A stretch of 64,000 nucleotides of DNA from Liquorilactobacillus nagelii DSM 13675 (GTDB lineage: Bacteria; Bacillota; Bacilli; Lactobacillales; Lactobacillaceae), in contig NZ_CP049304.1 in NCBI RefSeq assembly GCF_019444005.1, positions 1,798,001 to 1,862,000 on the forward strand, read 5' to 3'. Made by a program: the position numbers and the translations under genes. Below the pieces are notes generated by a model. It ran no database searches. It was not told the origin of the DNA and worked only from the letters and a program-made list of their open reading frames with translations. Shown in pieces: positions 1,655 to 38,927 of the stretch (position 1 is the first letter of the stretch; each line of letters starts with the position of its first letter).

Positions 1655-1929
1655 ATAAAAAAAGTCCCTTCTGAGCTAAAGCTCAAAAGGGACGAAAATC
1701 TCCGTGATACCACCCAAAATTCAATAAGATCTTATAATCTTATCCTCACTAAGTACTAATATACTTGTGTGCTATAATGGGCAACCCATGAAAAGCTCAC
1801 CGCAGCTTGCTTTCCAACAACTCGAAGACCATATTCGCCAAAAACTTTCATGCCTGCTTGCAGCTACTCAGGCTCTCTCTTAATGAAAATTAATCGCTAC
1901 TCATCTTTTCAAAGTCAAATTATTATGAT
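1655..1929 (-). promoter_or_regulatory. T-box leader upstream of the orphan oppA
   Basis: On the minus strand this leader shows a stem I region with AGTA and AGAGAG elements (about 1870-1910), a T-box GGGTGGTATCACGGAG (about 1698-1716), and an intrinsic terminator (stem 1664-1693 followed by a T tract at 1655-1663). T-box RNAs read through when an uncharged tRNA binds. The bulge UGGU predicts a tRNA with discriminator A. The best specifier candidate is AUG in GAATATGG, followed by a purine, which would mean methionine; that assignment is tentative. Confidence 0.85.
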
Positions 1930-16313: not shown

Positions 16314-17267
16314 TTAGTTAAAGCTCTTTTGAGCACGAGCGCGATACTTCGAAATTTCATCTTCTGAACAACGAACAAATCTCCCCGGAACAATCTCATG
16401 CATTTTCTTTGGATGTTCTGGATCATCTTTTTCTTCACTGGCATCATAAACAATCTGGCGACGCTTGCGTTCAAACTCTGGATCAGGAACCGGTACTGCT
16501 GAAATCAAGCTGGCTGTGTAATCGTGCAATGGATGTTCGTAAACATCATCTGCCGGTCCAACTTCCAATAACTTACCATAATGCATCACACCGATCCGAT
16601 CAGAAATGTACTTAACCATTGAAAGATCATGCGCAATAAACAAATACGTTAAGCCTTGCTGCTTTTGTAAATCTTTCAACAAATTGACTACTTGGGCTTG
16701 AATTGAAACGTCCAATGCCGAAATTGGTTCATCAGCAATAATAAATTTTGGTTTAACAGCAAGCGCCCGAGCAATTCCGATTCGTTGCCGCTGACCACCA
16801 GAAAATTCATGCGGGTAGCGACTGGAATGATCTTTGTTCAAGCCAACGGTCTCCAATAAATTTTCAACAATTTCACTACGTTCTTTATCATTCTTAGCTA
16901 AATGATGAATATCAATTCCTTCAGCTACAATATCTTTAATTTTCATGCGGGGATTAAGTGATGCATACGGATCTTGAAAAATCATCTGCATTTGGCGACG
17001 AAATTTCAAAAAGTCTTTCCGTGATTTTAACTGGCTGATATCTTCCCCGTCAAAAATGATCTTCCCATCAGTTGGATGATACAAATGGATAATACTCCGA
17101 CCAGTAGTGGTCTTTCCTGAACCAGACTCACCTACCAAGCCAAAAGTCTCGCCCTCATAAATATCAAAGCTAATGTCATCAACTGCGCGCACCTCATTGG
17201 GCTTACCCACATTAAAATATTGTTTTAAATGCTTGACTTCTAAAAGTTTCTTTTGATTTTCTGCCAT
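16314..17267 (-). CDS. oppF: Oligopeptide ABC transporter ATP-binding protein OppF
   Basis: One of two ATPases that power peptide import. The 317-residue protein has Walker A GESGSGKTT (near 49), Q-loop FQDPYASLNP, signature SGGQRQRIGIARAL and Walker B FIIADEPISALDVS, plus the oligopeptide-type C-terminal extension (PLHDYTASLISAVPVPDP, then a short Cys-containing tail). It is the last gene of the opp operon, 12 bp after oppD, with the bidirectional terminator behind it. Confidence 0.96.
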   Translation of the reverse strand: MAENQKKLLEVKHLKQYFNVGKPNEVRAVDDISFDIYEGETFGLVGESGSGKTTTGRSIIHLYHPTDGKIIFDGEDISQLKSRKDFLKFRRQMQMIFQDPYASLNPRMKIKDIVAEGIDIHHLAKNDKERSEIVENLLETVGLNKDHSSRYPHEFSGGQRQRIGIARALAVKPKFIIADEPISALDVSIQAQVVNLLKDLQKQQGLTYLFIAHDLSMVKYISDRIGVMHYGKLLEVGPADDVYEHPLHDYTASLISAVPVPDPEFERKRRQIVYDASEEKDDPEHPKKMHEIVPGRFVRCSEDEISKYRARAQKSFN

Positions 17268-17279
17268 GGGCTCTTCTCC

Positions 17280-18326
17280 TTAGTGCTCCTGCGTTTGATT
17301 ATTCATTTCACGATAAAGCTGCCAGCGCCGCAATATCTCATCCGGTGGTGTCACTTTAGGTGCATCAGGATGTAATAACCAAGTAGCGGCATAATGCGTT
17401 TCTGAAACTTTAAAAAACGGCGGCTTTTGTTCCGCATCAATCTTCATTGCAAATGGATTTCGAGCCGCAAAAGGATCACCCTTTGGCGGATCTAACAAGT
17501 CGGGTGGTGTTCCAGGAATGGCTTCTAATTTGGTACTTGAAAGAGTCGGCATTGAATTCAATAAGCCCCAAGTATATGGATGCTGTGGATTATAGAAAAT
17601 TTCATCAACTGTACCGTATTCGATAATTTCACCAGCATACATAACAGCTACTCGATCAGCCATGCCAGCCACAACCCCTAAGTCATGGGTAATAAAAATA
17701 ATTGAAGTTTCAATTTTTGTCTGCAGATCCTTCATCAAATCCAAGATCTGAGCTTGAATTGTTACATCCAAAGCGGTTGTCGGTTCATCAGCAATTAAAA
17801 CTTCTGGATAACAAACTAACGCAATTGCTATTACAATCCGTTGCCGCTGACCACCAGAAAATTGATGCGGATAATTATTAATCCGCTGTTCAGCATCCGT
17901 AATCCCGACCAGTTTCATAATTTCCAAAGCTTGCTGCCAAGCCTTTTTCTTCTCCAGATGTTTATGCTTGATTAATGGTTCAGCAATCTGCTGACCAATT
18001 TTCATTGTTGGATCTAATGAAGTCATTGGATCCTGAAAAATCATCGCAATATCCTTACCACGAATATTTTGCATCTGTTTTTCACTATTCTTCAATAAGT
18101 CTTGGTCATGATACATAATTGACCCGCTGACAACCTTAGCATTGTTAGCTAATAAGCCCATAATACTTTTGGTGGTAACTGACTTACCTGAGCCAGATTC
18201 ACCCACAATTGCCAGAGTTTCCCCCTTATCCAAGTGAAAACTGACATCACGGATTGCTTTGACTTCGCCAGCGTAGGTATGAAAGTTAATTCGTAAGTTT
18301 TTAACGTCTAAAATTCTTTCAGTCAT
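17280..18326 (-). CDS. oppD: Oligopeptide ABC transporter ATP-binding protein OppD
   Basis: Second ATPase of the peptide importer. The 348-residue product has Walker A GESGSGKSV, FQDPMTSLDP, signature SGGQRQRIVIAIAL, Walker B VLIADEPTTALDVT, and the C-terminal substrate-transporter tail (NPQHPYTWGLLNSMP, then PPKGDPFAARNPFA). A GGTAGGAG ribosome site precedes ATG 18326. It follows oppC by nine bases, consistent with one transcript. Confidence 0.96.
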   Translation of the reverse strand: MTERILDVKNLRINFHTYAGEVKAIRDVSFHLDKGETLAIVGESGSGKSVTTKSIMGLLANNAKVVSGSIMYHDQDLLKNSEKQMQNIRGKDIAMIFQDPMTSLDPTMKIGQQIAEPLIKHKHLEKKKAWQQALEIMKLVGITDAEQRINNYPHQFSGGQRQRIVIAIALVCYPEVLIADEPTTALDVTIQAQILDLMKDLQTKIETSIIFITHDLGVVAGMADRVAVMYAGEIIEYGTVDEIFYNPQHPYTWGLLNSMPTLSSTKLEAIPGTPPDLLDPPKGDPFAARNPFAMKIDAEQKPPFFKVSETHYAATWLLHPDAPKVTPPDEILRRWQLYREMNNQTQEH

Positions 18327-18335
18327 GTCGTTCTC

Positions 18336-19361
18336 CTACCTTCTCGTCTTAGGATCAAAGGCGTCACGCAAACCATCGCCTAATAAGTTAAATGCTATCA
18401 TCAAGACACATAAGACGATTGCTGGATACCACATTTGATATGGTAAGAACTGAAAATTCTTCTGTCCATCATTCAACAATACCCCTAATGAGGTTTGCGG
18501 TGAACTAATTCCAATTCCAATGAAACTCAAGAAAGCTTCAAAGAAAATTGCCGTTGGAATTGTGTACATGGTTTGAATAATGATAATACTTGATAGGTTG
18601 GGTACTAGATGTTTCAATGATATTTTTAGCGGTGACTCACCTAAAGTTTGCGCTGCTAGGACATATTCTTGCGATTTCAATGACAGTGTTTCCGCTCGTA
18701 TCATGCGTGCCATTGTCGTCCAACTGGAAATAGCAATCGCACAAATAATTGATGTCATGCCTGGTTTTAGTACCAACAGCATTAAAACCACAATTACCAA
18801 GTTAGGAACAGATGAAATAATTTCAATAATCCGCTGCATGACTGTATCAACCCGGCCGCCTTTCCAACCAGAAATAATTCCATAGGCGACTCCAATTGTT
18901 AAATCAAAAAATGTTGCGACTAACGCGACAATTAAAGAAATTTTGGTCCCATAAATAATTCTTTCAGCTAATGAACGGCCCAAATAATCAGTACCTAAAA
19001 TAAAATATTTATCTTTAGGAATGTTATTTTGTTGATACTCATCCACCCATTTGCCGGCCACTTTCAACTTACCATTAAAACCATTAATCGATACTCCCGG
19101 AATCTTAGCCGGCAGATTAGCATAAGTTGGTGCCGATTTAACCAGTGAATTATGATCAATAAACGGTGTTGAACCAAAGGCAACTACCACCATAATTAAA
19201 ACAATAAAGAGCGAAATAACTGCCCCTTTATTTTTCTTGAGCCGCATCCAAGCATCTTGCAAAAAAGTCAATGACGGTGCAGCAATTTTTTCGTTATCCA
19301 GCGATTCGCTTTTTGCTAGCGGCTGGAAACTATCTGAATTTAATTTCATTTTTTCTTCCAT
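18336..19361 (-). CDS. oppC: Oligopeptide ABC transporter permease OppC
   Basis: Inner-membrane subunit of the peptide importer. The 341-residue protein has an N-terminal helix (about 38-60), a long extracellular insert typical of lactic OppC proteins (residues 65-120), then the permease domain with five helices and the EAA loop (TLGESPLKISLKHLVPNL). It starts at ATG 19361, whose ribosome site overlaps the oppB stop region. Confidence 0.95.
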   Translation of the reverse strand: MEEKMKLNSDSFQPLAKSESLDNEKIAAPSLTFLQDAWMRLKKNKGAVISLFIVLIMVVVAFGSTPFIDHNSLVKSAPTYANLPAKIPGVSINGFNGKLKVAGKWVDEYQQNNIPKDKYFILGTDYLGRSLAERIIYGTKISLIVALVATFFDLTIGVAYGIISGWKGGRVDTVMQRIIEIISSVPNLVIVVLMLLVLKPGMTSIICAIAISSWTTMARMIRAETLSLKSQEYVLAAQTLGESPLKISLKHLVPNLSSIIIIQTMYTIPTAIFFEAFLSFIGIGISSPQTSLGVLLNDGQKNFQFLPYQMWYPAIVLCVLMIAFNLLGDGLRDAFDPKTRR

Positions 19362-19364
19362 TGC

Positions 19365-20294
19365 TTAACCCTCATTTCCACTTAAACGAATTCGTGGATC
19401 AATTATTCCATAAACAATATCTGTCAGCAAGATAATTGCAACCAACCCGGCTGAAAACAACATCGTAACCCCCATAATAGTCGGATAATCATTAACTAAA
19501 ATTGATTTAACAAATTGTTCACCAATTCCGGGAATTGAAAAGATATTTTCAATAACCATTGAACCAGTCATCAAAGCAACTGTGTACGGCCCAATTAACG
19601 TTACCAAGGGAATTAAACTATTTCTGAGTGCATGATGATAAACAATGCCAAATTTGCTAAGTCCTTTAGCTCGCGCTAATTCAATATAATCAGAATTTAA
19701 TACATCAACCATTCCGGTGCGGACAAAACGCGCTGTTTCGGCTAACGGGCCAACCCCCAACGCAATCGTCGGTAAAATTGTATAGCTAAACCCGCCCCAA
19801 TCGGCAATTGGGAACCAACCCAGCTTCAACGCAATATAATATTGTAATAAAACAGCTAAAACAAAGTTAGGAACTGATTTACCAATAATTGAAACAATTG
19901 TTGAAGTCGTGTCGATCCAAGTATTACGATTAATAGCGGCAATCGAACCAATGATAATTCCAAAGAAAACTCCAAAAATCATTGCTTGAGCCCCTAATTG
20001 AGCAGATGCTCCAATTCGGCTTGAAATCAAGTATGACACTGGCTGATTACTGAATTGGAAGGAGGTTCCTAAATCTCCATGTAACATTCCAAAAATGTAA
20101 ATTACATATTGCTCCCAAATCGGTTTATTAAGTCCATATTGTTGGTTCATAATTTGAATTTGCTGTTGGGTCATTTTCTGCTGGTTTGAATACGGTGTTC
20201 CAGGCATCAACTTCATTAAAAAGAAAGTAATTGTTGCTACCAAGAAAAGTGTCAAAGCCATGTAGAATACCCGTTTTAAAAGATATTTCCGCAT
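19365..20294 (-). CDS. oppB: Oligopeptide ABC transporter permease OppB
   Basis: First permease subunit of the importer. It has the N-terminal helix LKRVFYMALTLFLVATITFFLM-type segment, the PGTPY loop, and the permease domain with the EAA loop (ARAKGLSKFGIVYHHALRNSLIPL). The ATG at 20294 is preferred over GTG 20306 because GAGGAA lies directly between them, giving 309 residues. It is separated from the upstream oppA by 120 bp that hold a stable stem-loop. Confidence 0.95.
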   Translation of the reverse strand: MRKYLLKRVFYMALTLFLVATITFFLMKLMPGTPYSNQQKMTQQQIQIMNQQYGLNKPIWEQYVIYIFGMLHGDLGTSFQFSNQPVSYLISSRIGASAQLGAQAMIFGVFFGIIIGSIAAINRNTWIDTTSTIVSIIGKSVPNFVLAVLLQYYIALKLGWFPIADWGGFSYTILPTIALGVGPLAETARFVRTGMVDVLNSDYIELARAKGLSKFGIVYHHALRNSLIPLVTLIGPYTVALMTGSMVIENIFSIPGIGEQFVKSILVNDYPTIMGVTMLFSAGLVAIILLTDIVYGIIDPRIRLSGNEG

Positions 20295-20353
20295 ATTTTT
20301 CCTCACATTCTCTTACATTAACTAAATTAGAAATTTTAACTATCTAAATGCCA

Positions 20354-20415: not shown

Positions 20416-22044
20416 TTATTTTGAGATATAAGCATTCTTAAAGTTGTAATTTACACCAGCTGAGTTGTAAACAACACCCTTAACTTTTGGTTTAACTAAA
20501 GTTGCTAATGACTGTTGATAAATTGGAGCGATCCCTTGATCATTCATCAAGATTTTTTCTGCCTTAACTAAGTCATTCCAACGCTTGGTTGTATTGCCAG
20601 CATCAGTCGTCTTTGAGGCCTCAATCAATTTGTCATATTCAGCATTCTTCCATTTACCGTTATTTTGAGAGTTATCAGAAGTAAAGAGATCTAAGAAACT
20701 GATTGGATCAGCAAAGTCTGCCCCCCAACCAGAAACAACTACATCGAAGTTGCCATTGGTTGAACGTGATAAGCGAGTCTTGAATGGTACGTTTTCAACT
20801 GAAACTTTAGCACCTTTCAAGTTCTCTTCAATCTGACTTTGCAAGAATTGAGTCGTATTGTTACCAGCATCAGTATCATCACTCAAGATGGTAAAGCTCA
20901 AGTCCTTAACTCCTAATTCTTTCAAGCCCTCTGCCCAAAGCTTCTTAGCTTCTGCCTTATTATAGGTGACAGCGGACTTAACATAGGCTGTATCTGCAAA
21001 ATCTTTGCCATTATGTTTTGCTAAACCAGATGAAACATAACCCTTAGCAACTGTCGAACCATTGCCTAAGACTTTATTAACAAATTGCTTACGGTCAATG
21101 ATCATTGAGAGTGCCTGACGAATCTTTTTGTTTTGGAACTCTTTTTTAGTCTGATTATACTGCAGGTAGAAAGTTGAAGCGTTCTTTCTAACTACGAAAT
21201 CTTTCGAGTTCGATAACTGCTTAGCTTGTTCGGCTCCGAGGTTGGTTTCGTCAAGCTTGCCTGACTGATATAAGTTGTAAGCTGTTGTATTACTCTTATT
21301 AACTTTGTAGTTAATAGCGGACAACTTAACATCTTTCTTATCCCAGTAGTCCTTATTTTTCTTCAAAGTCCAACTTAGATTAGAGCCAGTCCAATTAGTT
21401 AAAGTAAATGGTCCATTATAAACCATGTATTTCGAAGCTGTTCCATATTTGCTGCCGTATTTTTCAACTGCACTCTGGTTCTGCGGGAAAAATACTGGGA
21501 AGCCCATCAGTAATTTAAAGTATGGAATCTTCTTTTCCAAAGTAACAGTCAATTTATAATTGCCATCAGCTTTGATTCCCAAGGTTGAAACGTCTTTCTT
21601 ACCATTCATAATTGCATCGGCATTCTTAATACCGCTGAATAAGTAAGCATATTGAGAAGCTGTCTTAGGATTAACTGTTCGCCGCCAAGAGTACACAAAA
21701 TCTTTAGCAGTTACAGCATCTCCATTGCTCCATTTGTCCTTACGCAAGGTGAAGACGTACTTTTGACCGTTATCAGAAACTTTTGTCTTAGTGGCTAATC
21801 CCGGTTCAATCTTACTGTCTTTGCCTAAACGATAAATACCTTCCATCGAGTTATTCAGCATATCGAAACTGACTACATCGGTGGCTGTTGAAAGATCCAT
21901 TGTTGGCAACTCAGATGTTTCATTCCAGTTAAGAACCTGCTTAGATGCCATGCTGCTGCTTGTGCTTTTAGAGCCACAAGCTGCCAGGGCAATTGCAGAA
22001 AAAGCTGCAACTAACCCGAGTTTAGCTAATCGATTAAATTTCAT
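20416..22044 (-). CDS. oppA: Oligopeptide-binding lipoprotein OppA, copy next to the permease genes
   Basis: Peptide receptor of the Opp system. From ATG 22044 (GGGGAG at good spacing; the longer frame from 22086 lacks a ribosome site) it has 542 residues, with a lipoprotein signal ending ALAAC (Cys23) and the SBP_bac_5 domain (NGDAVTAKDFVYSWRRTVNPKT-type segment near 105, FADPISFLDLF near 450). It is closely similar along its length to the OppA at 22311-23936, indicating tandem duplication. It sits immediately upstream of oppB. Confidence 0.95.
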   Translation of the reverse strand: MKFNRLAKLGLVAAFSAIALAACGSKSTSSSMASKQVLNWNETSELPTMDLSTATDVVSFDMLNNSMEGIYRLGKDSKIEPGLATKTKVSDNGQKYVFTLRKDKWSNGDAVTAKDFVYSWRRTVNPKTASQYAYLFSGIKNADAIMNGKKDVSTLGIKADGNYKLTVTLEKKIPYFKLLMGFPVFFPQNQSAVEKYGSKYGTASKYMVYNGPFTLTNWTGSNLSWTLKKNKDYWDKKDVKLSAINYKVNKSNTTAYNLYQSGKLDETNLGAEQAKQLSNSKDFVVRKNASTFYLQYNQTKKEFQNKKIRQALSMIIDRKQFVNKVLGNGSTVAKGYVSSGLAKHNGKDFADTAYVKSAVTYNKAEAKKLWAEGLKELGVKDLSFTILSDDTDAGNNTTQFLQSQIEENLKGAKVSVENVPFKTRLSRSTNGNFDVVVSGWGADFADPISFLDLFTSDNSQNNGKWKNAEYDKLIEASKTTDAGNTTKRWNDLVKAEKILMNDQGIAPIYQQSLATLVKPKVKGVVYNSAGVNYNFKNAYISK

Positions 22045-22310
22045 ACCTTGGTTCTCCCCTTTTGTTTCATTTTTAGAAACATTCAATGTAATGCCTAAAT
22101 TTTATATGAAAATCAGATTAAATACAAGTATAAAAATTTAAATTTTCTTGCAAAACGATTTATTTTTAATTAAATTAAACCAAAATCTGATTAAATTTAA
22201 GTTAAAACTAATTTTAAGGCCACTTTTTTTTCGATTCCAAAGTCAAAATATACAAATAGTTTATAATTGAAAAACCTAGGTAGATAATCTTACATCAGAT
22301 TTATTGCCAA

Positions 22311-23936
22311 TTATTTAGCGATGTACGCTGTTTTGAAATTAAAAGCAATTCCCGCTGTATTATAGACAACTCCCTTAACGTCACTGCGTAATAGTTGAGC
22401 CTGTGACAATTGATACAATGGTGCAACTCCTTGATCTTCACTCAACATTTTAGAGGCTGCGACTAAGTCTTGCCAGCGTTTGCCTTGGTTATTAACATCT
22501 GTTGTTTTTGAAGCATTAATCAACTGATCATATTTTGCATTGTCCCATTTACCATCATTATAAGCATTGCCCTTGGTAAATAAATCCAAGAAGCTAATCG
22601 GGTCAGAGAAGTCCGCTGCCCAACCAGAAAGTACAACATCGAACTGGCCTGCTGCTGCACGAGTAATCCGCGTTTTCTTTGGTAAGCTTTCAACCGATAC
22701 TTTGGCACCTGGCAGATTAGTTTCAAATTGGCTTTGCAAATAATCGGTGACTGCTTTGCTCATGTCATCATCGTCGCCCATTAAAGTAAAGTCTAACTTC
22801 TTCACACCGAGTTCCTGTAAACCTTCGCGCCATAACTTCTGAGCTTTCGCTTTATTATAAGTTACACCAGCAGTGGTTGCCGCAGCAGTGGCAAAATCTT
22901 TTCCTTGATAACTTGCTAAATCTTGCGAAACAATTCCTTTAGAAGATAGCGATCCATTACCTAAAACCTTATTAACTAGCTGTTTACGATTAACTGCGTA
23001 TGATAAAGCTTGGCGAATTTTCTTGTTCTGAAACTCTTTTTTGGTCTGATTAAATTCCAAGTAGTTAGTTCGTGATTGTTTTAAAGAAACATAGTCTTTA
23101 TTGTTAGAAAGCTGTTTTGCCTGTTCAGCATCTAGATAGGTTTCATCTAACTTTTTATTCTGATAAAGATTGTATGAAGTTGTGGTACTTTTAGCTACCT
23201 GGAAGGTAATCTTTTGTAATTTAACTGCTTTTGCATCCCAATAATCTTTATTTTTAACTAAACGCCAATTTAAATTTGATCCATTCCAACCAACTACCTT
23301 GTATGGGCCATTGTAAACCATATATTTGGCAGCCGTCCCATACTTGGAACCATATTTTTCAACCGCTTTTTGATCCTGTGGGAAGAAAACAGTAAAGCCC
23401 ATTAATAATTTAAAATACGGCACATTCTTATCCAAATTAACAACTAATTTATGTTTATTGACCGCAGTGACACCTAGAGCTGTTACTGGTTTTTTACCGT
23501 TTGCAACGGCATCCGCATTTTTAATTCCTTCGAAAAGATATGAATATTCTGAAGCTGTTTTAGGGTTAACCGTCCGCCGCCAAGAATATACAAAATCTTG
23601 GGCAGTTACTGGATCACCATTTGACCATTTGCTATCTTTACGCAAAGTAAAGGTATAAGTTAGCCCATGATTACTGACGCGTGTTTTGGTTGCCAAACCA
23701 GGTTCAATCTTACTGTGTTTTCCTAAACGATAGAGTCCTTCGGTACTATTACTAATAGTATCTGAACTAACCGTATCAACCACCTTGGATAAATCCAAGG
23801 TCTGTAATTCTGTTGGTTCAGACCACCGAAGTACTTGTGATGAAGCTGGTTGACTACTTTTCGAACCACAAGCTGTTAGTGCTGCCGTACTAGCAGCAAT
23901 TGTAACGAATAATGCTAATCCCTTTTTGAGATTCAT
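22311..23936 (-). CDS. Oligopeptide-binding lipoprotein OppA, leader-proximal copy
   Basis: Second peptide receptor and first structural gene of the operon. The 541-residue product starts at ATG 23936 (GGGGGAG), has a lipobox at LTAC (Cys23) and the same SBP_bac_5 layout as its neighbour, including FSDPISFLDLF. Differences are spread along the sequence, so the two copies may bind different peptides. An attenuator with a leader peptide lies directly upstream. The 267-bp gap to the next oppA contains no clear terminator, so the operon probably continues; a weak internal promoter there is possible. Confidence 0.95.
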   Translation of the reverse strand: MNLKKGLALFVTIAASTAALTACGSKSSQPASSQVLRWSEPTELQTLDLSKVVDTVSSDTISNSTEGLYRLGKHSKIEPGLATKTRVSNHGLTYTFTLRKDSKWSNGDPVTAQDFVYSWRRTVNPKTASEYSYLFEGIKNADAVANGKKPVTALGVTAVNKHKLVVNLDKNVPYFKLLMGFTVFFPQDQKAVEKYGSKYGTAAKYMVYNGPYKVVGWNGSNLNWRLVKNKDYWDAKAVKLQKITFQVAKSTTTSYNLYQNKKLDETYLDAEQAKQLSNNKDYVSLKQSRTNYLEFNQTKKEFQNKKIRQALSYAVNRKQLVNKVLGNGSLSSKGIVSQDLASYQGKDFATAAATTAGVTYNKAKAQKLWREGLQELGVKKLDFTLMGDDDDMSKAVTDYLQSQFETNLPGAKVSVESLPKKTRITRAAAGQFDVVLSGWAADFSDPISFLDLFTKGNAYNDGKWDNAKYDQLINASKTTDVNNQGKRWQDLVAASKMLSEDQGVAPLYQLSQAQLLRSDVKGVVYNTAGIAFNFKTAYIAK

Positions 23937-23982
23937 TTAAAACTCCCCCTAAATAAAAATAATTTTTACTTTTTGGTCAAAT

Positions 23983-24018
23983 AAAAAATCCCATCAACCG
24001 CTAAGCAATTGATGGGAT
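23983..24018 (-). terminator. Attenuator terminator in the opp leader
   Basis: Minus-strand ATCCCATCAA (24018-24009) pairs with TTGATGGGAT (23997-23988), followed by a T run. It lies between the leader peptide and the first oppA, so it must be bypassed for expression. Confidence 0.85.
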
Positions 24019-24092
24019 GAACGTTCTTTTACTTTAAAAGTCCCCATCAATGCCTAAGTCAGCGTGATGGGTTTTCTATCTGTCGAAAAAGC

Positions 24093-24191
24093 CTAGACAT
24101 CAGATAACACATCACGCGTGCTAATAATGACTAGGGAAATAATTCGTTGTGCTAACTTATCAAATAGCTGCCATTCATTAATCTGCATCAT
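24093..24191 (-). CDS. Opp operon leader peptide, rich in branched-chain residues
   Basis: A 32-residue ORF starts with two ATG codons after a strong AAAGGAGG site. Twelve of its 32 residues are Ile, Leu or Val, with the run IISLVII at 17-23, just before the codons that form arm 1 of the attenuator. This is the composition expected for a regulatory leader sensing branched-chain aminoacyl-tRNA. No other function is suggested. Confidence 0.7.
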   Translation of the reverse strand: MMQINEWQLFDKLAQRIISLVIISTRDVLSDV

Positions 24192-24219
24192 GGTTATCTA
24201 ACCTCCTTTATGAGAATTA

Positions 24220-24247
24220 ATTATACCCGATTCTTACGAAATTGCAA
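24220..24247 (-). promoter_or_regulatory. Promoter of the opp leader transcript
   Basis: Minus-strand TTGCAA (24247-24242) and TATAAT (24225-24220) are separated by 16 bp. Transcription would begin a few bases before the leader ribosome site. Confidence 0.6.
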
Positions 24248-24345
24248 TCTGAATTTAAATTATCAAAGATTTTTTAAACGCAACTTTTCTTTAAACAGCT
24301 AAAAAATGCTACAATTAAACCAATATAATACGAGGGAGATTTAAA

Positions 24346-25593
24346 ATGACAGAAATCATTATTGCTGGATTAGATCAGCACTCAACTGATTTTGACTATT
24401 CAATGGCTGAGTTCGCCAGCTTAGCTGAAGCCGCTGAAATGCATGTTTTAACGACATTAACTCAAGCCGCCGATCATCCGACTAGTGGAACCTATTTTGG
24501 CCGTGGTAAAGCGGATGAATTAGCAACCGCTGTCACTGCCAATCAAGCAGAAGCATTGTTAGTTAACGATCAACTTTCTCCAACTCAATTACGTAACTTA
24601 GAAGAAATCGTTAAAGTACCAGTTATTGATCGAACTGAATTGATTTTGGAAATTTTTTCAAGACGTGCACGCACCAAAAGAGCCAAACTCCAAGTTGAAA
24701 TTGCTCGTCTGAAATATCAATTACCACGGCTACGCGTTTCTGGCTTTAATAAACTTGATCAACAAAGCAGTGGTGGTCAAGGTGCCAATCGTGGTGCTGG
24801 TGAAACTCAGCATGAATTAACTAAACGAACTTTGCAACAACGAATCAATCAATTGCGTCACCAGCTGCAAGAAATCGCCAAAGAAAACACTACTCAAAGT
24901 CGTGCGCGACAACGTTCTGGCTTACCGTTAGTTGCTTTTGTCGGTTACACCAATGCCGGAAAATCAACAACTTTCAACGGCCTACTAGATTTATTTGGTG
25001 AGAAAACTGCTAATCGAAATTTAGTCAAAGATCAGTTATTTGCAACACTGGATACTTCGATTCGTCGTTTAGATTTCAAGGATAATAAATCTTTTCTAAT
25101 CAGTGATACGGTTGGCTTCATTAATGACTTACCTGCTGACTTACTTGAGGCTTTCAAAACTACTTTGGAAACTGTCAACGAAGCTGATTTATTGATTCAA
25201 GTTGTCGATCTTAGTCATTCAGAATATAAGAAGATGATGGCTGCCACTGAAAAAACTTTACAACAAATCGGAGCTGGCAACATTCCAATGCTTTATGCAT
25301 ACAATAAAGCGGATAAGTTACACTTAACTTATCCGCTCAGTGAAGGTGGCCAATTAACTTATAGTGCTATTGACCAGAACTCTTTAATTAAATTAGTTGC
25401 TTTGATTAAAAACCAGTTATTCGGTAATTATCAACAACATGATTACTTAATTCCTTTTCAAGCTAGCCGTTTCCTAGAAGAATTCAACCAACAAGCAAAC
25501 ATTTTAGAAACTAGTTACACCGCTGCAGGAACTTTATTGAAAGCTGAGGTTTCCCCAAAGCTAGCTCAGAAGTTTGTTCAATTTCAACAGTAA
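24346..25593 (+). CDS. hflX: Ribosome-associated GTPase HflX
   Basis: GTPase that splits stalled ribosomes under stress. The 415-residue product has the N-terminal HflX domain (residues 1-190, with GTYFGRGKADEL, RTELILEIFSRRART and the GAGETQHEL box) and a GTPase domain with G1 GYTNAGKST (near 203), DTVGFINDLP (G3 region) and AYNKADKL (G4). GAGGGAG precedes ATG 24346. It diverges from the opp leader and ends with no gap against the convergent gene at 25594. Confidence 0.95.
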   Translation: MTEIIIAGLDQHSTDFDYSMAEFASLAEAAEMHVLTTLTQAADHPTSGTYFGRGKADELATAVTANQAEALLVNDQLSPTQLRNLEEIVKVPVIDRTELILEIFSRRARTKRAKLQVEIARLKYQLPRLRVSGFNKLDQQSSGGQGANRGAGETQHELTKRTLQQRINQLRHQLQEIAKENTTQSRARQRSGLPLVAFVGYTNAGKSTTFNGLLDLFGEKTANRNLVKDQLFATLDTSIRRLDFKDNKSFLISDTVGFINDLPADLLEAFKTTLETVNEADLLIQVVDLSHSEYKKMMAATEKTLQQIGAGNIPMLYAYNKADKLHLTYPLSEGGQLTYSAIDQNSLIKLVALIKNQLFGNYQQHDYLIPFQASRFLEEFNQQANILETSYTAAGTLLKAEVSPKLAQKFVQFQQ

Positions 25594-26415
25594 CTAGTGT
25601 TTGGGTTCAGTTTTAGAACGATACGCCAATTGCAGTTTGACTGTATATGGCCGTTGCTCAACCATAACACTAGAACGACCAGCAAACTTAATTGGTCCAC
25701 CTTGAACAGTAGCAGTTGCTGCAAACAATTGATATCGTTGGCTTGCCGCCGCAACAGGCATCAAGCCAACGGTTTTTATTTGTCCTAAAACTTTCTTTTC
25801 CATCTGATTAACACCACCAACTAAAAATAATTTTTCGCCTTGATGCTGCAATTCATAATATGGCAATGCAATCGGTTGATTCAAAGTGGCAAACGTCTGG
25901 CCAGCTTTAGCAGTTCGCAGAATTTGATTATCATCAATGCCCCCGTAATCCAGCTTAAGGTAATTCTGAGCGGCCAATTGCTGCACAATTTGCTGCAGTG
26001 CATGTTGTTCCTGCAATGTGCTGCTAATTTCTGCGGGTAAAACTTTCTCATTGTTGAATAAACCATTAGTCTGAACAAATCCTGGCTGTGGTCGACGTGA
26101 ATTGTTGACTTCGGTTGGTACCTGCCGTGGTTTCAAATGCAGTGTTTTTTCTAGCCAGGGTGTAAAATCTAATTTTGAATTTTTTTTAGTAATATAATAA
26201 ATCAAATTCAAATAGGCTAAGTACCCTAAAACCAAAAAGGCTAAAACAAACAACGCACCTTGCGGCCAAAAACCATTTGAAAAGAAACGATAAGCTACAT
26301 AGAGCAGGTAGAAGTCACCAACTGATCCCAGTACCGTATAGACTAGGTTTTTCAGGCGTACATTCATATTAATATAGCCTAAGTAACTATTGATCATCCC
26401 AATAATGCTAAACAT
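25594..26415 (-). CDS. Membrane protein, probably DUF6681 family
   Basis: The 273-residue protein has two N-terminal membrane helices (about 22-45 and 50-75), a linker, then a mostly beta cytosolic or extracytosolic domain. It looks like the lactobacillar DUF6681 family; the assignment is from memory of the N-terminal region and not firm. AGGAGG precedes ATG 26415. It follows the serine-rich gene by 12 bp and is presumably cotranscribed with it. Its stop codon abuts that of hflX with zero spacing. Function is unknown. Confidence 0.7.
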   Translation of the reverse strand: MFSIIGMINSYLGYINMNVRLKNLVYTVLGSVGDFYLLYVAYRFFSNGFWPQGALFVLAFLVLGYLAYLNLIYYITKKNSKLDFTPWLEKTLHLKPRQVPTEVNNSRRPQPGFVQTNGLFNNEKVLPAEISSTLQEQHALQQIVQQLAAQNYLKLDYGGIDDNQILRTAKAGQTFATLNQPIALPYYELQHQGEKLFLVGGVNQMEKKVLGQIKTVGLMPVAAASQRYQLFAATATVQGGPIKFAGRSSVMVEQRPYTVKLQLAYRSKTEPKH

Positions 26416-26427
26416 CTTGATATCCTC

Positions 26428-26916
26428 CTACTGATTATTCGTGCCTGTATTGTTTGTACTTGAGGATGACTGTGAACTTCTAGTTGCATTTTGCTGTTGA
26501 TTCTGATCTTCAGTTGAAGATGAAGATGAAGATGAGGATAAACTGGAACTTGTTGCTTCTGTATTGCCCTCACTCGAAGAACTTCTCGATGATGAGTCAG
26601 CTTCATTGTCTCTTTGCGTTGAACTACTTGATTGATCAGCGCTAGTTGTGGCAGATGAAGCATCAGGCCGTTCGCTACTACTTTCAGAAGAAGAAGTTTC
26701 ACTACTTTTATCTTTATTCTTGTTTTTATCAGTTGAACTGCTATCTTTTGTCGGTTGACTACTGCTTGAATAACTACTTGATGAAGAAACTTTTGATACT
26801 GGCTGCCCCTCTGAAGTATGCGTCGCAGTATTAACAGCAACGTTGGTAGCCCCGAGTGCTAAAACAAGCGACATAATTGCAAAAGGGGTTATAAACGGCG
26901 GCGTTTGAGATGCCAT
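26428..26916 (-). CDS. Serine-rich low-complexity protein with one N-terminal membrane segment
   Basis: The 162-residue product has one hydrophobic segment (about 9-30, PFAIMSLVLALGA) followed by a tail that is largely Ser with Thr, Asp, Glu, Asn and Gln. There is no LPXTG or other anchor motif. The tail would be an extracellular, disordered, possibly glycosylated spacer or a flexible membrane-tethered tail. GGAG precedes ATG 26916. A long frame in another phase (26394-26840) is a shadow of the TCN repeats. Coupled with the membrane protein downstream; function unknown. Confidence 0.7.
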   Translation of the reverse strand: MASQTPPFITPFAIMSLVLALGATNVAVNTATHTSEGQPVSKVSSSSSYSSSSQPTKDSSSTDKNKNKDKSSETSSSESSSERPDASSATTSADQSSSSTQRDNEADSSSRSSSSEGNTEATSSSLSSSSSSSSTEDQNQQQNATRSSQSSSSTNNTGTNNQ

Positions 26917-26986
26917 TTTTTAATCGCTCCATTCCTTGATAATTTACTATAAGACTAACTTATACCTATTTTTTGATAAAACAAGA

Positions 26987-27424
26987 CTATTTATTTGAAG
27001 TTTTTGCTAAATTTGCACATTCTGCACACAAACCGTAAAGCTCAAAATGATGATCTTGAATTTCACATCCTGGTAACTGCTCCTGAAAGAAATCCAACGG
27101 ACACATCTTAAGTTCCTGTACTTTACCACAATTACGACAAATAAAGTGGTGGTGGTGTTGCTGCGTGAAATCACACTGAAATTTGACAACAGCATTGCCA
27201 TCTCTAACTCGCTGTTCGACGATTCCCATTTCTTCAAACTCTTTAATATTACGATAAATTGTATTATGACTCATTCCTGGATATTGCTGATGCATATAAT
27301 GGTCAACTGTTGTAATGTTGACATACTGTGATTGAAAATGACTAAGATATTCCAACAAGCTTAGTCGCTGTTTGGTGATGCGGTAACGATTTTTTTGTAA
27401 TATTTTTACAGCAACATCTATCAT
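26987..27424 (-). CDS. Fur-family metalloregulator (PerR-like)
   Basis: Metal- or peroxide-responsive repressor. The 145-residue product has the winged-helix N-terminal part (RITKQRLSLLEYL ... MSHNTIYRNIKEFEEMGIVEQ), the His-rich metal site (QQHHHHFICRNCG), and a second Cys pair (LCAEC) that completes the structural zinc site. HTH residues and spacing fit PerR best; Fur or Zur cannot be excluded. A Fur-type operator at about 27450-27466 upstream suggests autoregulation. Confidence 0.87.
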   Translation of the reverse strand: MIDVAVKILQKNRYRITKQRLSLLEYLSHFQSQYVNITTVDHYMHQQYPGMSHNTIYRNIKEFEEMGIVEQRVRDGNAVVKFQCDFTQQHHHHFICRNCGKVQELKMCPLDFFQEQLPGCEIQDHHFELYGLCAECANLAKTSNK

Positions 27425-27448
27425 GTCAGCAGCCCCTTATTGATTAAA

Positions 27449-27468
27449 AATTAATGATAATAATTACT
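27449..27468 (-). promoter_or_regulatory. Fur/PerR-type box upstream of the regulator gene
   Basis: AATGATAATAATTACTATC resembles the 7-1-7 Fur/PerR inverted repeat TGATAATnATTATCA with one or two mismatches and lies about 25-40 bp before the start codon. Confidence 0.5.
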
Positions 27469-27493
27469 ATCTACCAGTATAACATAAACTAGT

Positions 27494-28051
27494 TTAAACT
27501 TCAGACAATAACCCGTTTCGTTTTAGCACCCGTTCTAAGTTTTTCACCGTTTGCTGCCATTCATCATTAATCAATACTTGACACTTATCTTTTAATTCCA
27601 CAGGTATTTGCAAATCACGTTGTCCCTCTTGACTTTGAAGATGTTTTTTCCCAGTAACTTCTCGGTGTTCTACTCGCTGTAATAAAATTTGCGGCGTACT
27701 TACTGTTATATAACAACAAATCGTTTGTTCCGGCAATTGTTGACAATATGTCAAGGCTCCCTTTGTATCTAAAACAATAACTGCATTGTCACTTTTATTC
27801 CAAGCTTGTTCAAGTCCTTCACGTGAAGAACCGTAATGGTATTGATCATAGACCACCCTTTCAAAATAATGGTGTTTTTTAAACGACAATTCGCTTTCAA
27901 AATAATAATCCTGCCCAGCTACCTCAGCTGGACGAGCGGGACGGGTGGTATGAGTAATAACTCGACTGAACTTGTATTGCTGTTGTAAATAATTACTAAT
28001 TCGGGTCTTTCCCGAACCAGGTGCTCCACAAAGAATCAAAAGTCGCTTCAT
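27494..28051 (-). CDS. Guanylate kinase-like NTPase (paralogue)
   Basis: P-loop protein of the guanylate kinase family: ILCGAPGSGKTRIS (5-18), THTTRPARPAEVAGQDYYF (the GMP-binding TTRxxRxxExxGxDY box), SSREGLEQAW and HREVTGKKH in the lid region. At 185 residues it is slightly shorter than housekeeping Gmk and more divergent, so it is likely an accessory paralogue. It is on the same strand as the Fur-family gene, 70 bp upstream. Whether it is a GMP kinase or acts on another nucleotide is not visible. Confidence 0.7.
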   Translation of the reverse strand: MKRLLILCGAPGSGKTRISNYLQQQYKFSRVITHTTRPARPAEVAGQDYYFESELSFKKHHYFERVVYDQYHYGSSREGLEQAWNKSDNAVIVLDTKGALTYCQQLPEQTICCYITVSTPQILLQRVEHREVTGKKHLQSQEGQRDLQIPVELKDKCQVLINDEWQQTVKNLERVLKRNGLLSEV

Positions 28052-28245
28052 CGTAATCTCTCCTCAAAGCTAAGTTCATAGTTTATTTTACTATATTTAG
28101 TTTAAAGCAACAGCTTTTTAATCCTGTTATATTATAACTAAATTCTAATCATTAAATTGACAAAAGTGATCGTTACTAAATGTAAGTATGCCTAATTTCA
28201 GGAAACGCTTTAATAAAAAAATAGAATAAATTTTCTTTTTGTGGT

Positions 28246-28271
28246 TAAAAATAATCAAATTATGTCGATTC
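28246..28271 (+). promoter_or_regulatory. SigD/FliA-like promoter of the chemoreceptor gene
   Basis: TAAA (28246-28249), a 14-bp spacer and GTCGATTC (28264-28271) resemble the motility sigma consensus TAAA-N15-GCCGATAT. It lies 58 bp before the start codon. Confidence 0.5.
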
Positions 28272-28328
28272 TTTCTGTATGGGGAAATCATATATTCATG
28301 GTAACAAAAAAAACAGGAGGATTCTTTG

Positions 28329-30392
28329 ATGCAAATGCAAAAAAAGAAAAGTATCAATAAGGCTATTTTTACAACCGTCTTAGCTGTCTCGTTCATTCCA
28401 ATTTTAATTTTGGTAACCGTTCTTTATTTTAAAACACGTGATTTATTAATCGAGCGCAACCAGATTAATGAAGCAAGTGCCGCAAAAGTTTTGATTGATT
28501 CTAAAAATAATATGCGAAACTCAGTCGAACAAGAGTTACAACAAGTTGCTAATTTCCCGGAATTTCAAAAAAACAACCTCAGTCAGATTCGATCAAAACT
28601 AAAAACTGTAAAAAACTCTAATCTAGATATTACCGGCATCGGCTTTGCCACCGACACAGGAAAAACGGTAATGTTTCAAAAGCTTCCCGCCGGCTACGAT
28701 CCACGGACACGTGCTTGGTATAAAGGAGCTGTTAGTGATAATGGTAAAGTTTTCTGGACAACACCTTATCGTGATGTTACCACTGGAAAAATTACAGTAA
28801 CTGCATCAGTTCTTGTCCATAGTTCCAACAATCAAACCGGTGTTTTATACATGGATGCTTCCTATAAAGATGTTAACCACTCCATTTCCGGCTTAAAGGT
28901 TGGTCGCACCGGTCGAGTAGCATTAGTTGCTAAAAACGGAACAGTGATTACCTCAAAGGCCGCTAAAAGTAGCGATGCCCTAAAAACAGGAGATAACATC
29001 CGCCAAACAACACTTTTTAAAAAAATTGCTGCTTCTAACAAAGTATCTGGTACAATAATCGTTCCAGATAAAGTCTACGCTAAAAAAGTCTATTTTAATA
29101 AAGGAAGTGCTAATAGTCCTACTTGGGCGATTGCTCAAGTCAAACAAACTGATTTGAGTCGTGAATTGCACACACTTTTGGTGACTTCAGCTATCGCAGC
29201 TTTAATCATGCTGATTCTTATCTTGTTAGATTCTACCTTTGCTACCAAATTAGTGCGAGAGATTGTCGCCATCTTCAGCAAACGTTTTGAACAACAAGCA
29301 GTTGGAAAAATCGAAGAAATTCCGACTTTTGAAAACAGACCGGCTCTGCTAAATTTTGAACAATTGGCTGCCAAAGTCTGTAGCCCTAATCCAGCTGGCA
29401 ATGAAATCAATCGTGCTTCCGCCCAGTATAATCAAATGGTGGCTTCCTTAGATACTTTAATTCAAGAAATTCATCATCAGAGTGACCAAGTTGCTGATGG
29501 GGCTGAGTCAATTCTAAAATTATCCCAGCAGACTAATAAGGCCACTGAAGAAGTTGCTCAAGCTATTACGGGTATCGCCCAAGTCACAACTTCGCAAGCT
29601 CAAGAAACAAGCAATAGCGTAACGCAACTGCACAGTCTTGCAGATATTATTACCGACATGCATCAAAACGTTACAACGATTAATGATAAGTCACAAGAAT
29701 CTGCTAAAATCAATCAAGAAAATATCAATATTGTCAATCATGTTGGTAAGACGATGCAAAGTGAAATGCAGCAGATGGAAAAACTAAAAACCAATATGGA
29801 AGCAACTAACGATAGTATCCAAAATATCACCAAAATTATCGCTGTCATTAATGACATCTCTCATCAAACTAACTTGTTAGCTTTAAATGCATCAATCGAA
29901 GCAGCTAGTGCTGGAGAATCAGGTAAAGGTTTTGCCGTCGTAGCAACTGAAATTCGGAAATTATCCGAACAAAGTAAAACTTCAACTAAAAACATTGCTA
30001 ATATTATTGAAAAAATTCGTCAGCAATCAACAGAAATGGTTAAACAAACAGCTGCGTCCTTAAATGGTGGAAAGAAGCAAGCTGATTTGATCCAAAAATC
30101 AGTTAATTCTTCGCAAGAAGTTTTTGATCGTAGTAATCTAATGATTGCAGGTATCAAAAAGTTAGCCGAAACCAGTCAACAGATTGAAAAAGTTCAAACG
30201 ACCGTTTTGGAGAATCTTGAAAATATCTCTGCTTCAACTGAAGAAAATTCAGCTGGTACCGAAGAGGTTTCTGCCAATTCGGAAGAAGTTCAAGCAACAA
30301 TGGATGAATTTACCAATCATATTGCTAATTTGAAAAAGACTGCAACTTCACTTGATGAAATGTTGAAAAACTTCAAAGTTATTAAATACTAA
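28329..30392 (+). CDS. Methyl-accepting chemotaxis protein
   Basis: Membrane chemoreceptor that would control CheA kinase and flagellar rotation. The 687-residue product has a first membrane helix (about 15-36), a dCache-type extracellular sensor (40-280, with [14 protein letters not shown] and [11 protein letters not shown]), a second helix (about 285-305), a HAMP-like linker and a long coiled-coil signalling domain with the conserved tip [24 protein letters not shown] 28329 is chosen over TTG 28326 from the AGGAGG spacing. It stands alone, with its own terminator. The dCache ligand is often an amino acid, but this is inference. Confidence 0.92.
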
Positions 30393-30411
30393 TTTATACT
30401 ACACAAAAATT

Positions 30412-30456
30412 AAACCACAGTTGTCCTTATCTAGAAAGGTAACTGCGGTTTTTTCT
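30412..30456 (+). terminator. Terminator after the chemoreceptor gene
   Basis: AAACCACAGTT pairs imperfectly with AACTGCGGTTT around a small loop, followed by a T run. Confidence 0.75.
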
Positions 30457-30558
30457 TCCCCAAAATTGTTAGCATTCAAATAAATCTTAAGTAAAGCTGC
30501 TAGATAACTATTTTTGTAAGCGAAATTCAACTCGATTTATTAGCTTTTGCAAAGTTAT

Positions 30559-30586
30559 TTGACATTTTATTTTAATCTTGTATACT
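30559..30586 (+). promoter_or_regulatory. Promoter of the amino-acid permease gene
   Basis: TTGACA (30559-30564) and TATACT (30581-30586) at 16-bp spacing, with start about 40 bp before the gene. Confidence 0.65.
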
Positions 30587-30634
30587 TACTTCGTTATCTA
30601 TCTCTAACCTATTTTATTAATTGGGGGAATTTTT

Positions 30635-32023
30635 TTGAGTTTAAAAGAACGAATCTTTAAAAAAGAAAGCCTGGCACGTTATTTAGATAAAGATGGCCGC
30701 TTAGTTAAATCAATGGGCGCACTTGACTTGATAGCACTTGGAATTGGTGCTGTTATTGGAACCGGAATTTTCATTCTCCCAGGAACTGTTGCTGCACTAC
30801 ATAGTGGTCCGGCAATTATCCTTTCTTTTGTTGTTGCTGCAATTGTTTGCTCAACTTCAGCCATGTGCTATGCCGAATTTTCATCAGCTTTACCAATTGC
30901 TGGTAGTGCTTATTCTTTCGGCAATGTTATCTTTGGTGAAATTGTTGGCTGGTTTCTCGGCTGGGCTTTAATTTTAGAATACATGCTCGCCGTTGCCGCC
31001 GTTTCCACCGGCTGGGCAGCTTATTTTAGCTCTTTTTTAAGTGGATTCGGAATTCATCTTCCACAAGCTATCAGTGGTTATTTCGACCCAGCTCATGGAA
31101 CCTATATTAACTTAGTAGCTATTTTAATTGTTTTATTGATTTCTTTTATTCTATCTTTAGGGGTTAAAACTTCTGTGCGCTTTAATAATTTAATTGTCAT
31201 TTTAAAAATTGCCATTATTATTGTGTTCCTGCTGGTGGGAATGTTTTATGTTAAACCTGCTAATTGGCATCCCTTCTTACCTTTTGGAGTCAGTGGCGTC
31301 TTTAAAGGAGCTAGCTTAGTTTTCTTCGCTTATCTTGGTTTTGATGCTGTTTCTGCTTCCGCTGCCGAAGTTAAAAACCCTAAAAAGAATATGCCAGTCG
31401 GAATACTAGGAACTTTAATTATTTGTACGATCCTTTATATTTTAGTTTCGATTGTGCTAACCGGAATGGTTTCTTACACTAAATTAAACGTTGCTAACCC
31501 AGTATCTTTTGCCCTTCAGCTTGTCAATCAAAATTGGGTTGCCGGAATTATCTCGTTGGGCGCTTTAGCCGGCATGTTTACTATGATGGTTACCATGATT
31601 TTCAGTAGTTCCCGTTTAATTTATTCAATCGGCCGTGATGGTTTGCTGCCAAAATTTTTAGGCGAAGTCAGCCCTAAACATCACATTCCAGCAAATGCTA
31701 TGTTAATTGTCACTTTAATCATCTGCTTAATGGGTGGATTTGTTTCACTCGATCAATTAACTAACTTAGTTAATATTGGTACCTTAATTGCCTTTACTTT
31801 TGTTTCATTGGGTATTATCCCATTGCGTAAGCGCCAAGACATTCCCAATGATGGTTTTAAAGTTCCATTCTATCCAGTCTTACCAATTATTTCTGTCATT
31901 CTTTGTGTATTAATGATGACCCAACTGTCAGCAGAAACTTGGATTGCTTCGATTATCTGGTTTATTTTTGGAATGATCATCTACTTTGCTTACGGTATTA
32001 AACATAGTCAGCTAGCCAAATAA
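30635..32023 (+). CDS. APC-family amino-acid permease (CAT/YfnA-like)
   Basis: Secondary transporter for amino acids. The 462-residue protein shows twelve predicted membrane helices and the APC signature: GIGAVIGTGIFILPG in helix 1 (unwound substrate-binding Gly stretch), a conserved FFAYLGFDAVSASAAEVKNPKKNMPVGI segment in helix 6 and the following loop, and SSSRLIYSIGRDGLLPKF. The layout resembles the cationic amino-acid transporter branch. It starts at TTG 30635 with GGGGGA upstream. Substrate cannot be told from sequence. Confidence 0.9.
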   Translation: MSLKERIFKKESLARYLDKDGRLVKSMGALDLIALGIGAVIGTGIFILPGTVAALHSGPAIILSFVVAAIVCSTSAMCYAEFSSALPIAGSAYSFGNVIFGEIVGWFLGWALILEYMLAVAAVSTGWAAYFSSFLSGFGIHLPQAISGYFDPAHGTYINLVAILIVLLISFILSLGVKTSVRFNNLIVILKIAIIIVFLLVGMFYVKPANWHPFLPFGVSGVFKGASLVFFAYLGFDAVSASAAEVKNPKKNMPVGILGTLIICTILYILVSIVLTGMVSYTKLNVANPVSFALQLVNQNWVAGIISLGALAGMFTMMVTMIFSSSRLIYSIGRDGLLPKFLGEVSPKHHIPANAMLIVTLIICLMGGFVSLDQLTNLVNIGTLIAFTFVSLGIIPLRKRQDIPNDGFKVPFYPVLPIISVILCVLMMTQLSAETWIASIIWFIFGMIIYFAYGIKHSQLAK

Positions 32024-38381: not shown

Positions 38382-38873
38382 CTACTTTGTTAAATCAATT
38401 TTCAAACTAATAATTCCAATAACAACTGCGCCTAAAACCATTGAGCCTAACTCACCAATTGCGACACTAAGATAAGTCGCCCAAAAAGGCACATGACTAA
38501 TTAAATTAAGCTCCAGTGCCACACTCCAAGTTGATAAGGTACAAACAACAACGGCAATCGTTAATTTTTGCCACTTAAGCTGGACTAAGCGACTCAAATA
38601 ATGGCTGATAGCGGTCATCACTAGCGTACCTAATGAACCAAAAATTACATCCATCGGTCCTAAACTTGACCAAAGGTTTGCAATTACACAACCAAGTGTC
38701 AGGCCCCAGATGTACCGTTTATTAAACACGGCTAAATTATTCAACGTCTCTGATAAGCGAAATTGAACCGGGCCATAACTTAAAGGCGCCAAAGCTAAAG
38801 TTAAAACAACGTATAATGCTGCAATCAAGCTAGCCTTAATCAGACTAACTAAATGTTGATGTGATGACTGCAT
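38382..38873 (-). CDS. queT: QueT-type queuosine precursor transporter (ECF S component)
   Basis: Membrane substrate-binding component for import of a queuosine precursor such as preQ1 or queuine, working with shared ECF energising proteins. The 163-residue protein has about five hydrophobic helices and the QueT hallmark LSYGPVQFRLSETLNNLAVF followed by GCVIANLWSSLGPMDVIFGSLGT. GGAGG lies eight bases before ATG 38873, within the riboswitch expression platform. Confidence 0.92.
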   Translation of the reverse strand: MQSSHQHLVSLIKASLIAALYVVLTLALAPLSYGPVQFRLSETLNNLAVFNKRYIWGLTLGCVIANLWSSLGPMDVIFGSLGTLVMTAISHYLSRLVQLKWQKLTIAVVVCTLSTWSVALELNLISHVPFWATYLSVAIGELGSMVLGAVVIGIISLKIDLTK

Positions 38874-38880
38874 TTGAATT

Positions 38881-38927
38881 TCCTCCTAGTTTTTTATTAC
38901 GGTGGGATGTTTACGAACCACCAAGCA
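38881..38927 (-). promoter_or_regulatory. preQ1-I riboswitch of the queT operon
   Basis: Minus strand: stem GGTGG/CCACC (38922-38901) enclosing TTCGTAAACATC, then an A-rich tail AATAAAAAACTAGGAGG that contains the queT ribosome site. This matches the preQ1-I consensus (GGUUC loop, ACCC-type 3' arm, AUAAAAAACUA tail). Ligand binding should sequester the ribosome site and lower translation. A TATAAT at 38951-38946 may be the -10 of its promoter. Confidence 0.85.

Follow-up and report, generated by a model that had tools for sequence, protein, structure and literature searches.

T-boxes and CodY are regarded as the main sensors of amino-acid shortage in Bacilli, and in Lactococcus CodY controls opp, the genes of an oligopeptide importer. 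Leader-peptide attenuators of the ilv and leu genes are known from enteric bacteria and Actinobacteria. In the his operon attenuator of enteric bacteria, RNA arms pair alternately (A:B to E:F), a stalled ribosome covers arm A, and E:F is the terminator. We analyzed a stretch of 64,000 nucleotides from Liquorilactobacillus nagelii DSM 13675 (NZ_CP049304.1, positions 1,798,001 to 1,862,000; hereafter the window, to which all coordinates refer), and describe a leader on its minus strand (24247..23983), 5' of an oppA gene. The region comprises a promoter-like site, a leader open reading frame (ORF), competing arms and a terminator. Judged from its sequence, it is highly likely to be a ribosome-mediated transcription attenuator that responds to the charging state of the tRNAs for Ile, Leu and Val and governs the opp operon, and it very probably turns on the peptide importer when these amino acids are scarce.

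Like the his attenuator, this leader has alternating arms A:B, B:C, C:D, D:E and E:F, with a predicted stall on A and the terminator in E:F. Unlike it, the leader carries codons for Ile, Leu and Val rather than His, its host is one of the Lactobacillaceae, and an additional arm, Z, masks the ribosome site of the leader itself. With the ilv and leu attenuators it shares a leader peptide with branched-chain codons before an intrinsic terminator, but here leaders with a common nucleotide core stand before several operons, among them those for oligopeptide import, for an M20 peptidase and for transporters. T-box leaders (RF00230) also respond to tRNA charging, whereas no T-box was matched here and a translating ribosome would read the signal. 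As with CodY and opp in Lactococcus, branched-chain supply would govern peptide uptake. However, a CodY search that was positive in Bacillus subtilis and Lactococcus lactis gave no match above the cut-off in any of the 14 genomes searched from the genus (two weak matches fell below), and thus CodY is not at hand as an alternative control. The locus is predicted to work like ribosome-mediated attenuation, and has the codon cluster, the mutually exclusive helices and the intrinsic terminator expected of it. That kind of control is already known; what is unusual is one leader family over both branched-chain and peptide genes, and an arm that hides the start.

Anatomy of the leader and its competing arms

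The leader region sits between the divergent hflX gene (24346..25593, GTP_HflX over the cut-off) and the opp genes. An initial annotation, made from the letters, had proposed a complete textbook attenuator with a promoter, a 32-codon leader ORF with a strong ribosome site, and five alternative arms. The promoter-like site, the ORF (MMQINEWQLFDKLAQRIISLVIISTRDVLSDV) and its Shine-Dalgarno sequence (SD, AAAGGAGG) are all present on the minus strand, and 12 of the 32 residues are Ile, Leu or Val, as had been counted. Such promoter-like sites occur as a class at chance level (32 in 22000..32000, against a shuffle mean of 29.5). Between the ORF and the first gene, a terminator scan identified an intrinsic terminator (24018..23988) followed by a T-run. 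The leader RNA folds with -77.8 kcal/mol, compared with a shuffle mean of -51.3 (standard deviation 4.8; z -5.5), and 0 of 200 shuffles were as stable.

Arms B to F are arms 1 to 5 of the initial annotation (Table 1). Arm 1 (GCGTGATG, 24117..24110) is complementary to arm 2 (CATCACGC, 24069..24062) at 8 of 8 positions, as claimed. The remaining arms were also recovered, at somewhat greater lengths than the 7, 9 and 8-10 bp given for them: we count 10 pairs in C:D (2:3, within 24071..24043), 12 in D:E (3:4) and 14, including G-U pairs, in E:F (4:5, within 24018..23988). B:C and D:E are mutually exclusive with C:D and E:F, and represent the antiterminator and terminator helices, respectively. 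The five arms and the terminator therefore stand; the scheme was not complete, as it lacked arms Z and A. Five arms alone would give the wrong parity, in which an untranslated leader is read through, and adding Z and A restores the logic of the his attenuator.

The switch probably operates through arm B, which lies in the last leader codons and has the three rival partners Z, A and C. If the leader is untranslated, Z (which also hides the SD and start of the leader) or A would hold B, so that C:D and the terminator E:F form. A ribosome stalled at the IISLVII codons would cover A and leave B free, wholly or in its 3' half, for an assumed ribosome footprint. Free B would pair with C, D would capture E ahead of the synthesis of F, and RNA polymerase would continue into oppA. 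If the leader is translated to its stop codon, the ribosome would mask B, C:D and E:F would form, and transcription would end. From this arrangement we infer that the leader is translated, that the ribosome stalls, in which order the arms fold and that tRNA charging sets the outcome.

Table 1 Features of the leader and of the opp genes that follow it
Feature	Position	Strand	Basis or partner
Promoter-like site TTGCAA-16-TATAAT	24220..24247	minus	Consensus scan, 10/12
Shine-Dalgarno sequence of leader ORF	24202..24209	minus	Sequence
Leader ORF, 32 codons and stop	24093..24191	minus	Related ORFs in 46 leaders
Arm Z, SD/start region of leader ORF	24186..24206	minus	Pairs with 24116..24095; duplex -21.7 kcal/mol
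Arm A, Leu-Val-Ile-Ile codons	24126..24136	minus	Pairs with 24101..24091
Arm B (arm 1), switch arm in last leader codons	24091..24117	minus	Competed for by Z, A and C
Arm C (arm 2)	24061..24071	minus	Partner B or D; B:C duplex -24.9 kcal/mol
Arm D (arm 3)	24043..24054	minus	Partner C or E; D:E duplex -17.3 kcal/mol
Arm E (arm 4)	24005..24018	minus	Partner D or F
Arm F (arm 5) and terminator T-run	23983..24001	minus	Terminator scan
oppA-like lipoprotein, first gene after leader	22311..23936	minus	OppA-type NCBIfam families, below curated cut-offs
Second oppA-like lipoprotein (ATG start inside a listed TTG ORF)	20416..22050	minus	OppA-type families, sequence
oppB permease	19365..20306	minus	Opp3B over cut-off
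oppC-like permease	18336..19361	minus	Position and sequence only
oppD-like ATPase	17280..18326	minus	OppD-type families, below cut-off
oppF-like ATPase	16314..17267	minus	Position and sequence only

Related leaders in the Lactobacillaceae

In a search of 60 relatives at the DNA level, a single genome (G004, 76%) matched over almost the full leader, and the genomes of the genus matched at one or a few places over the end of the leader ORF (24135..24090). The pattern of this core occurs at 22 places in 14 of 14 Liquorilactobacillus genomes, while the reversed control gave 0 matches; the genome of L. nagelii itself carries two copies, one in the opp leader and one at G000:C1:1954845. When named stretches were scanned for the core, 20 of 24 belonged to Liquorilactobacillus (one filed as Lactobacillus sp. 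UCMA15818) and one to Ligilactobacillus ubinensis; the other three, from unrelated bacteria, were taken as chance. Chance matches to a loose pattern, such as those inside coding genes of L057, L060 and L061, were discarded by eye.

Two models, R1 (31 distinct leaders of the genus) and R2 (30 more varied leaders), were searched against 397 genomes sampled from the family; both scored eight candidates per genome, so that all counts are lower bounds. Read by eye, the leader is present in at least 24 of these genomes: the 14 of the genus and ten from another four genera (four in g23, three in g6, two in g5 and one in g47). R2 matches at E up to 0.02 extend to at least 26 genomes. Among 395 genomes of the order (family members included), no convincing leader was seen outside the family. 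Six weak R2 matches (L141 to L146, E 0.0028 to 0.067), four outside the family and two inside it (G080 and G092), were not leaders of this kind. A short Ile-rich ORF in another genus (MNRRKQNLAIINQAIIFTTVSE; L154 in G267, E 0.0087), with a terminator before a glutamate-cysteine-ligase-like gene, is either a separate leader or chance, and was left out of the counts.

Forty-six leaders entered the comparative tests (L016, with a core identical to that of L013, was dropped). The leader ORF and SD recur among them, in a set gathered with short ORF length as part of the filter and with start codons picked by SD score, and the ORF and its codon cluster are kept in five genera. Across the 46 leaders, pairing of the arms is stronger in the native combinations than after permutation of the partners, although the C:D and E:F hairpins were picked by folding, a choice that selects their native energies. 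The permutation test of Z:B gave 0 of 10000 overall and within classes, and 6 of 10000 within the eight opp leaders; as the leaders are related to each other, these counts are not probabilities. The A:B helix is paired in 92.9% of alignment cells with changes on both sides in six of nine pairs, counted on the same alignment from which it was read, and own partners gave little or no gain over permuted ones within classes. An alignment with relatives had been proposed as a check by the initial annotation, and it bears the idea out: the ORF, the branched-chain codons and the arms are conserved, with compensatory changes on both sides of pairs.

In all 46 leaders, codons -3 and -2 before the core specify Ile, Leu or Val, although seven and six different codons are used at these positions. 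Core codons 0 to 3 (Leu-Val-Ile-Ile) are near-invariant in their residues (45, 44, 46 and 44 of 46) and near-fixed in the codons themselves (CTA 41, GTC 39, ATT 45 and ATT 41 of 46), and CTA makes up 9% of the Leu codons in window genes. Such near-fixed codons point to RNA pairing as well as coding meaning. The branched-chain codon cluster overlaps arm A. On average, 6.2 of the seven core codons specify Ile, Leu or Val, compared with 24.7% of codons elsewhere in the leaders and 23.9% in nine genes of the window; part of this core conservation stems from the leaders having been found by their core.

The leader stands before oppA as first described, but it is not peculiar to opp. Downstream genes were named by eye from their translations. 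At least 48 R2 hits with E <= 2.1e-6 (L016 and L151 included) precede ilvE (13), ilvB (10), ilvD (1), oppA (8), PTS_EIIC_2 (8), M20 peptidase (4) and SBF-type transporter (4) genes, that is, 24 ilv genes, 12 oppA or M20 peptidase genes and 12 transporters without an assigned substrate. One representative per type was searched: ilvB, ilvD and ilvE were over NCBIfam cut-offs and PTS_EIIC_2, SBF and M20 over Pfam cut-offs, and oppA was below the NCBIfam cut-offs. Two weaker matches (L152, E 0.001; L153, E 0.007) come from another genus, where they precede oppA and encode the core peptide LISLVIIS; detected once the tests were complete, they are included only when genera and opp leaders are counted.

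The PTS_EIIC_2 transporter follows the leader in three genera (L065, L070, L108, L110, L112), and may transport a branched-chain compound instead of a sugar. In L070 the next gene resembles lactate/2-hydroxyacid dehydrogenases. The SBF-type transporters (L103, L104, L105, L106, L107; PanS-like, below the PanS cut-off) have a shorter leader that lacks good pairing of Z. L107 (G001) has the leader, then ilvD and then the transporter, an order that suggests a branched-chain or 2-oxo-acid substrate. Just 5' of the ilvB leader, several species (L054, L055, L056, L058, L059) have a small Cys-rich, zinc-ribbon-like ORF of 76 to 86 codons.

Alternative explanations and a possible regulon

The leader could instead sense ribosome stalling in general, from any amino-acid shortage or slow translation, with the branched-chain codons only part of the signal. 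Starvation at the Gln, Trp, Lys or Arg codons before the core of the window's leader would indeed also free arm B. We give this a low probability, because codons -3 and -2 always encode Ile, Leu or Val despite their codon variation, and because half of the strong matches precede ilv genes. The near-invariant Leu-Val-Ile-Ile residues would also fit a nascent peptide whose LVIIS segment arrests the ribosome in response to a drug or a metabolite, as happens in leaders of the ermC type; the segment bears some likeness to the ErmCL peptide. Yet the codons are nearly as fixed as the residues, which pairing of arm A can explain, and the residues just before the core interchange among Ile, Leu and Val. 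The downstream representatives searched were oppA-like, ilv, transporter and peptidase genes and not resistance genes, a context that makes drug-triggered arrest unlikely; peptide arrest as a whole appears quite improbable.

That the arms bind a protein, tRNA or metabolite directly, as a T-box-like or other riboregulator with an incidental ORF, would suit a genome in which T-boxes are common (32 matches at E <= 0.001, 14 of them over the cut-off). Here, however, the T-box covariance model had no match within 23930..24350 at E up to 5, and no Rfam family reached its gathering score at the opp leader or at the leaders of ten related loci. Together with the conservation of ORF and codon cluster across genera, this leaves direct binding scarcely credible. 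A T-box at the leader was accordingly rejected (the one in L005 is on the opposite strand and 5' of the leader), as was an anti-hemB match at the opp leader (25.4 bits, cut-off 49.5; the sole Rfam match at E up to 5), which we regard as a chance hairpin likeness. A point against attenuation by a ribosome stalled at branched-chain codons is that, at equilibrium, the finished terminator wins even with a stalled ribosome in 38 of 42 cases (folding to arm F). Read-through must therefore be kinetic, and a purely thermodynamic switch is disfavored.

Beyond the opp operon, we lean slightly towards a common origin, in which one ancestral leader-peptide attenuator was copied before many operons to give a dispersed branched-chain regulon (synthesis, transamination, transport, peptide uptake and peptide cleavage) in lactobacilli without CodY. 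Its switch arm would have three rival partners, one hiding the leader's ribosome site, so that each transcript admits essentially one pioneer ribosome that decides its fate. If this is true, a leader attenuator with a shared core before seven gene types would be a third way to run a branched-chain regulon, and would explain how these lactobacilli link peptide use to amino-acid need without CodY. The leader context also suggests branched-chain or related substrates for the PTS_EIIC_2 and SBF-type transporters.

The opp operon and further candidate riboregulators in the window

The second oppA-like gene has its own promoter-like site (22154..22127, 9/12) in its upstream stretch (22087..22310), and the attenuator may thus act more on the first oppA than on the other genes of the operon.

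The initial annotation knew of no ribosome-mediated attenuation described for an oligopeptide importer. Sensing of tRNA before an oppA-type gene is not unique to this leader, as a T-box (1685..1921, minus strand; 90.1 bits against a cut-off of 93) lies immediately before a further gene for an OppA-like lipoprotein (1..1629, minus strand), which runs off the window. By its Rfam alignment column, the putative specifier would read UAU. Within this window, two oppA-type genes thus seem to answer to two different sensors of tRNA charging. Elsewhere in the window, a PreQ1 riboswitch (38880..38927, minus strand; 41.6 bits) lies right before a gene for a 163-residue membrane protein (38382..38873), which resembles queuosine-precursor transporters.
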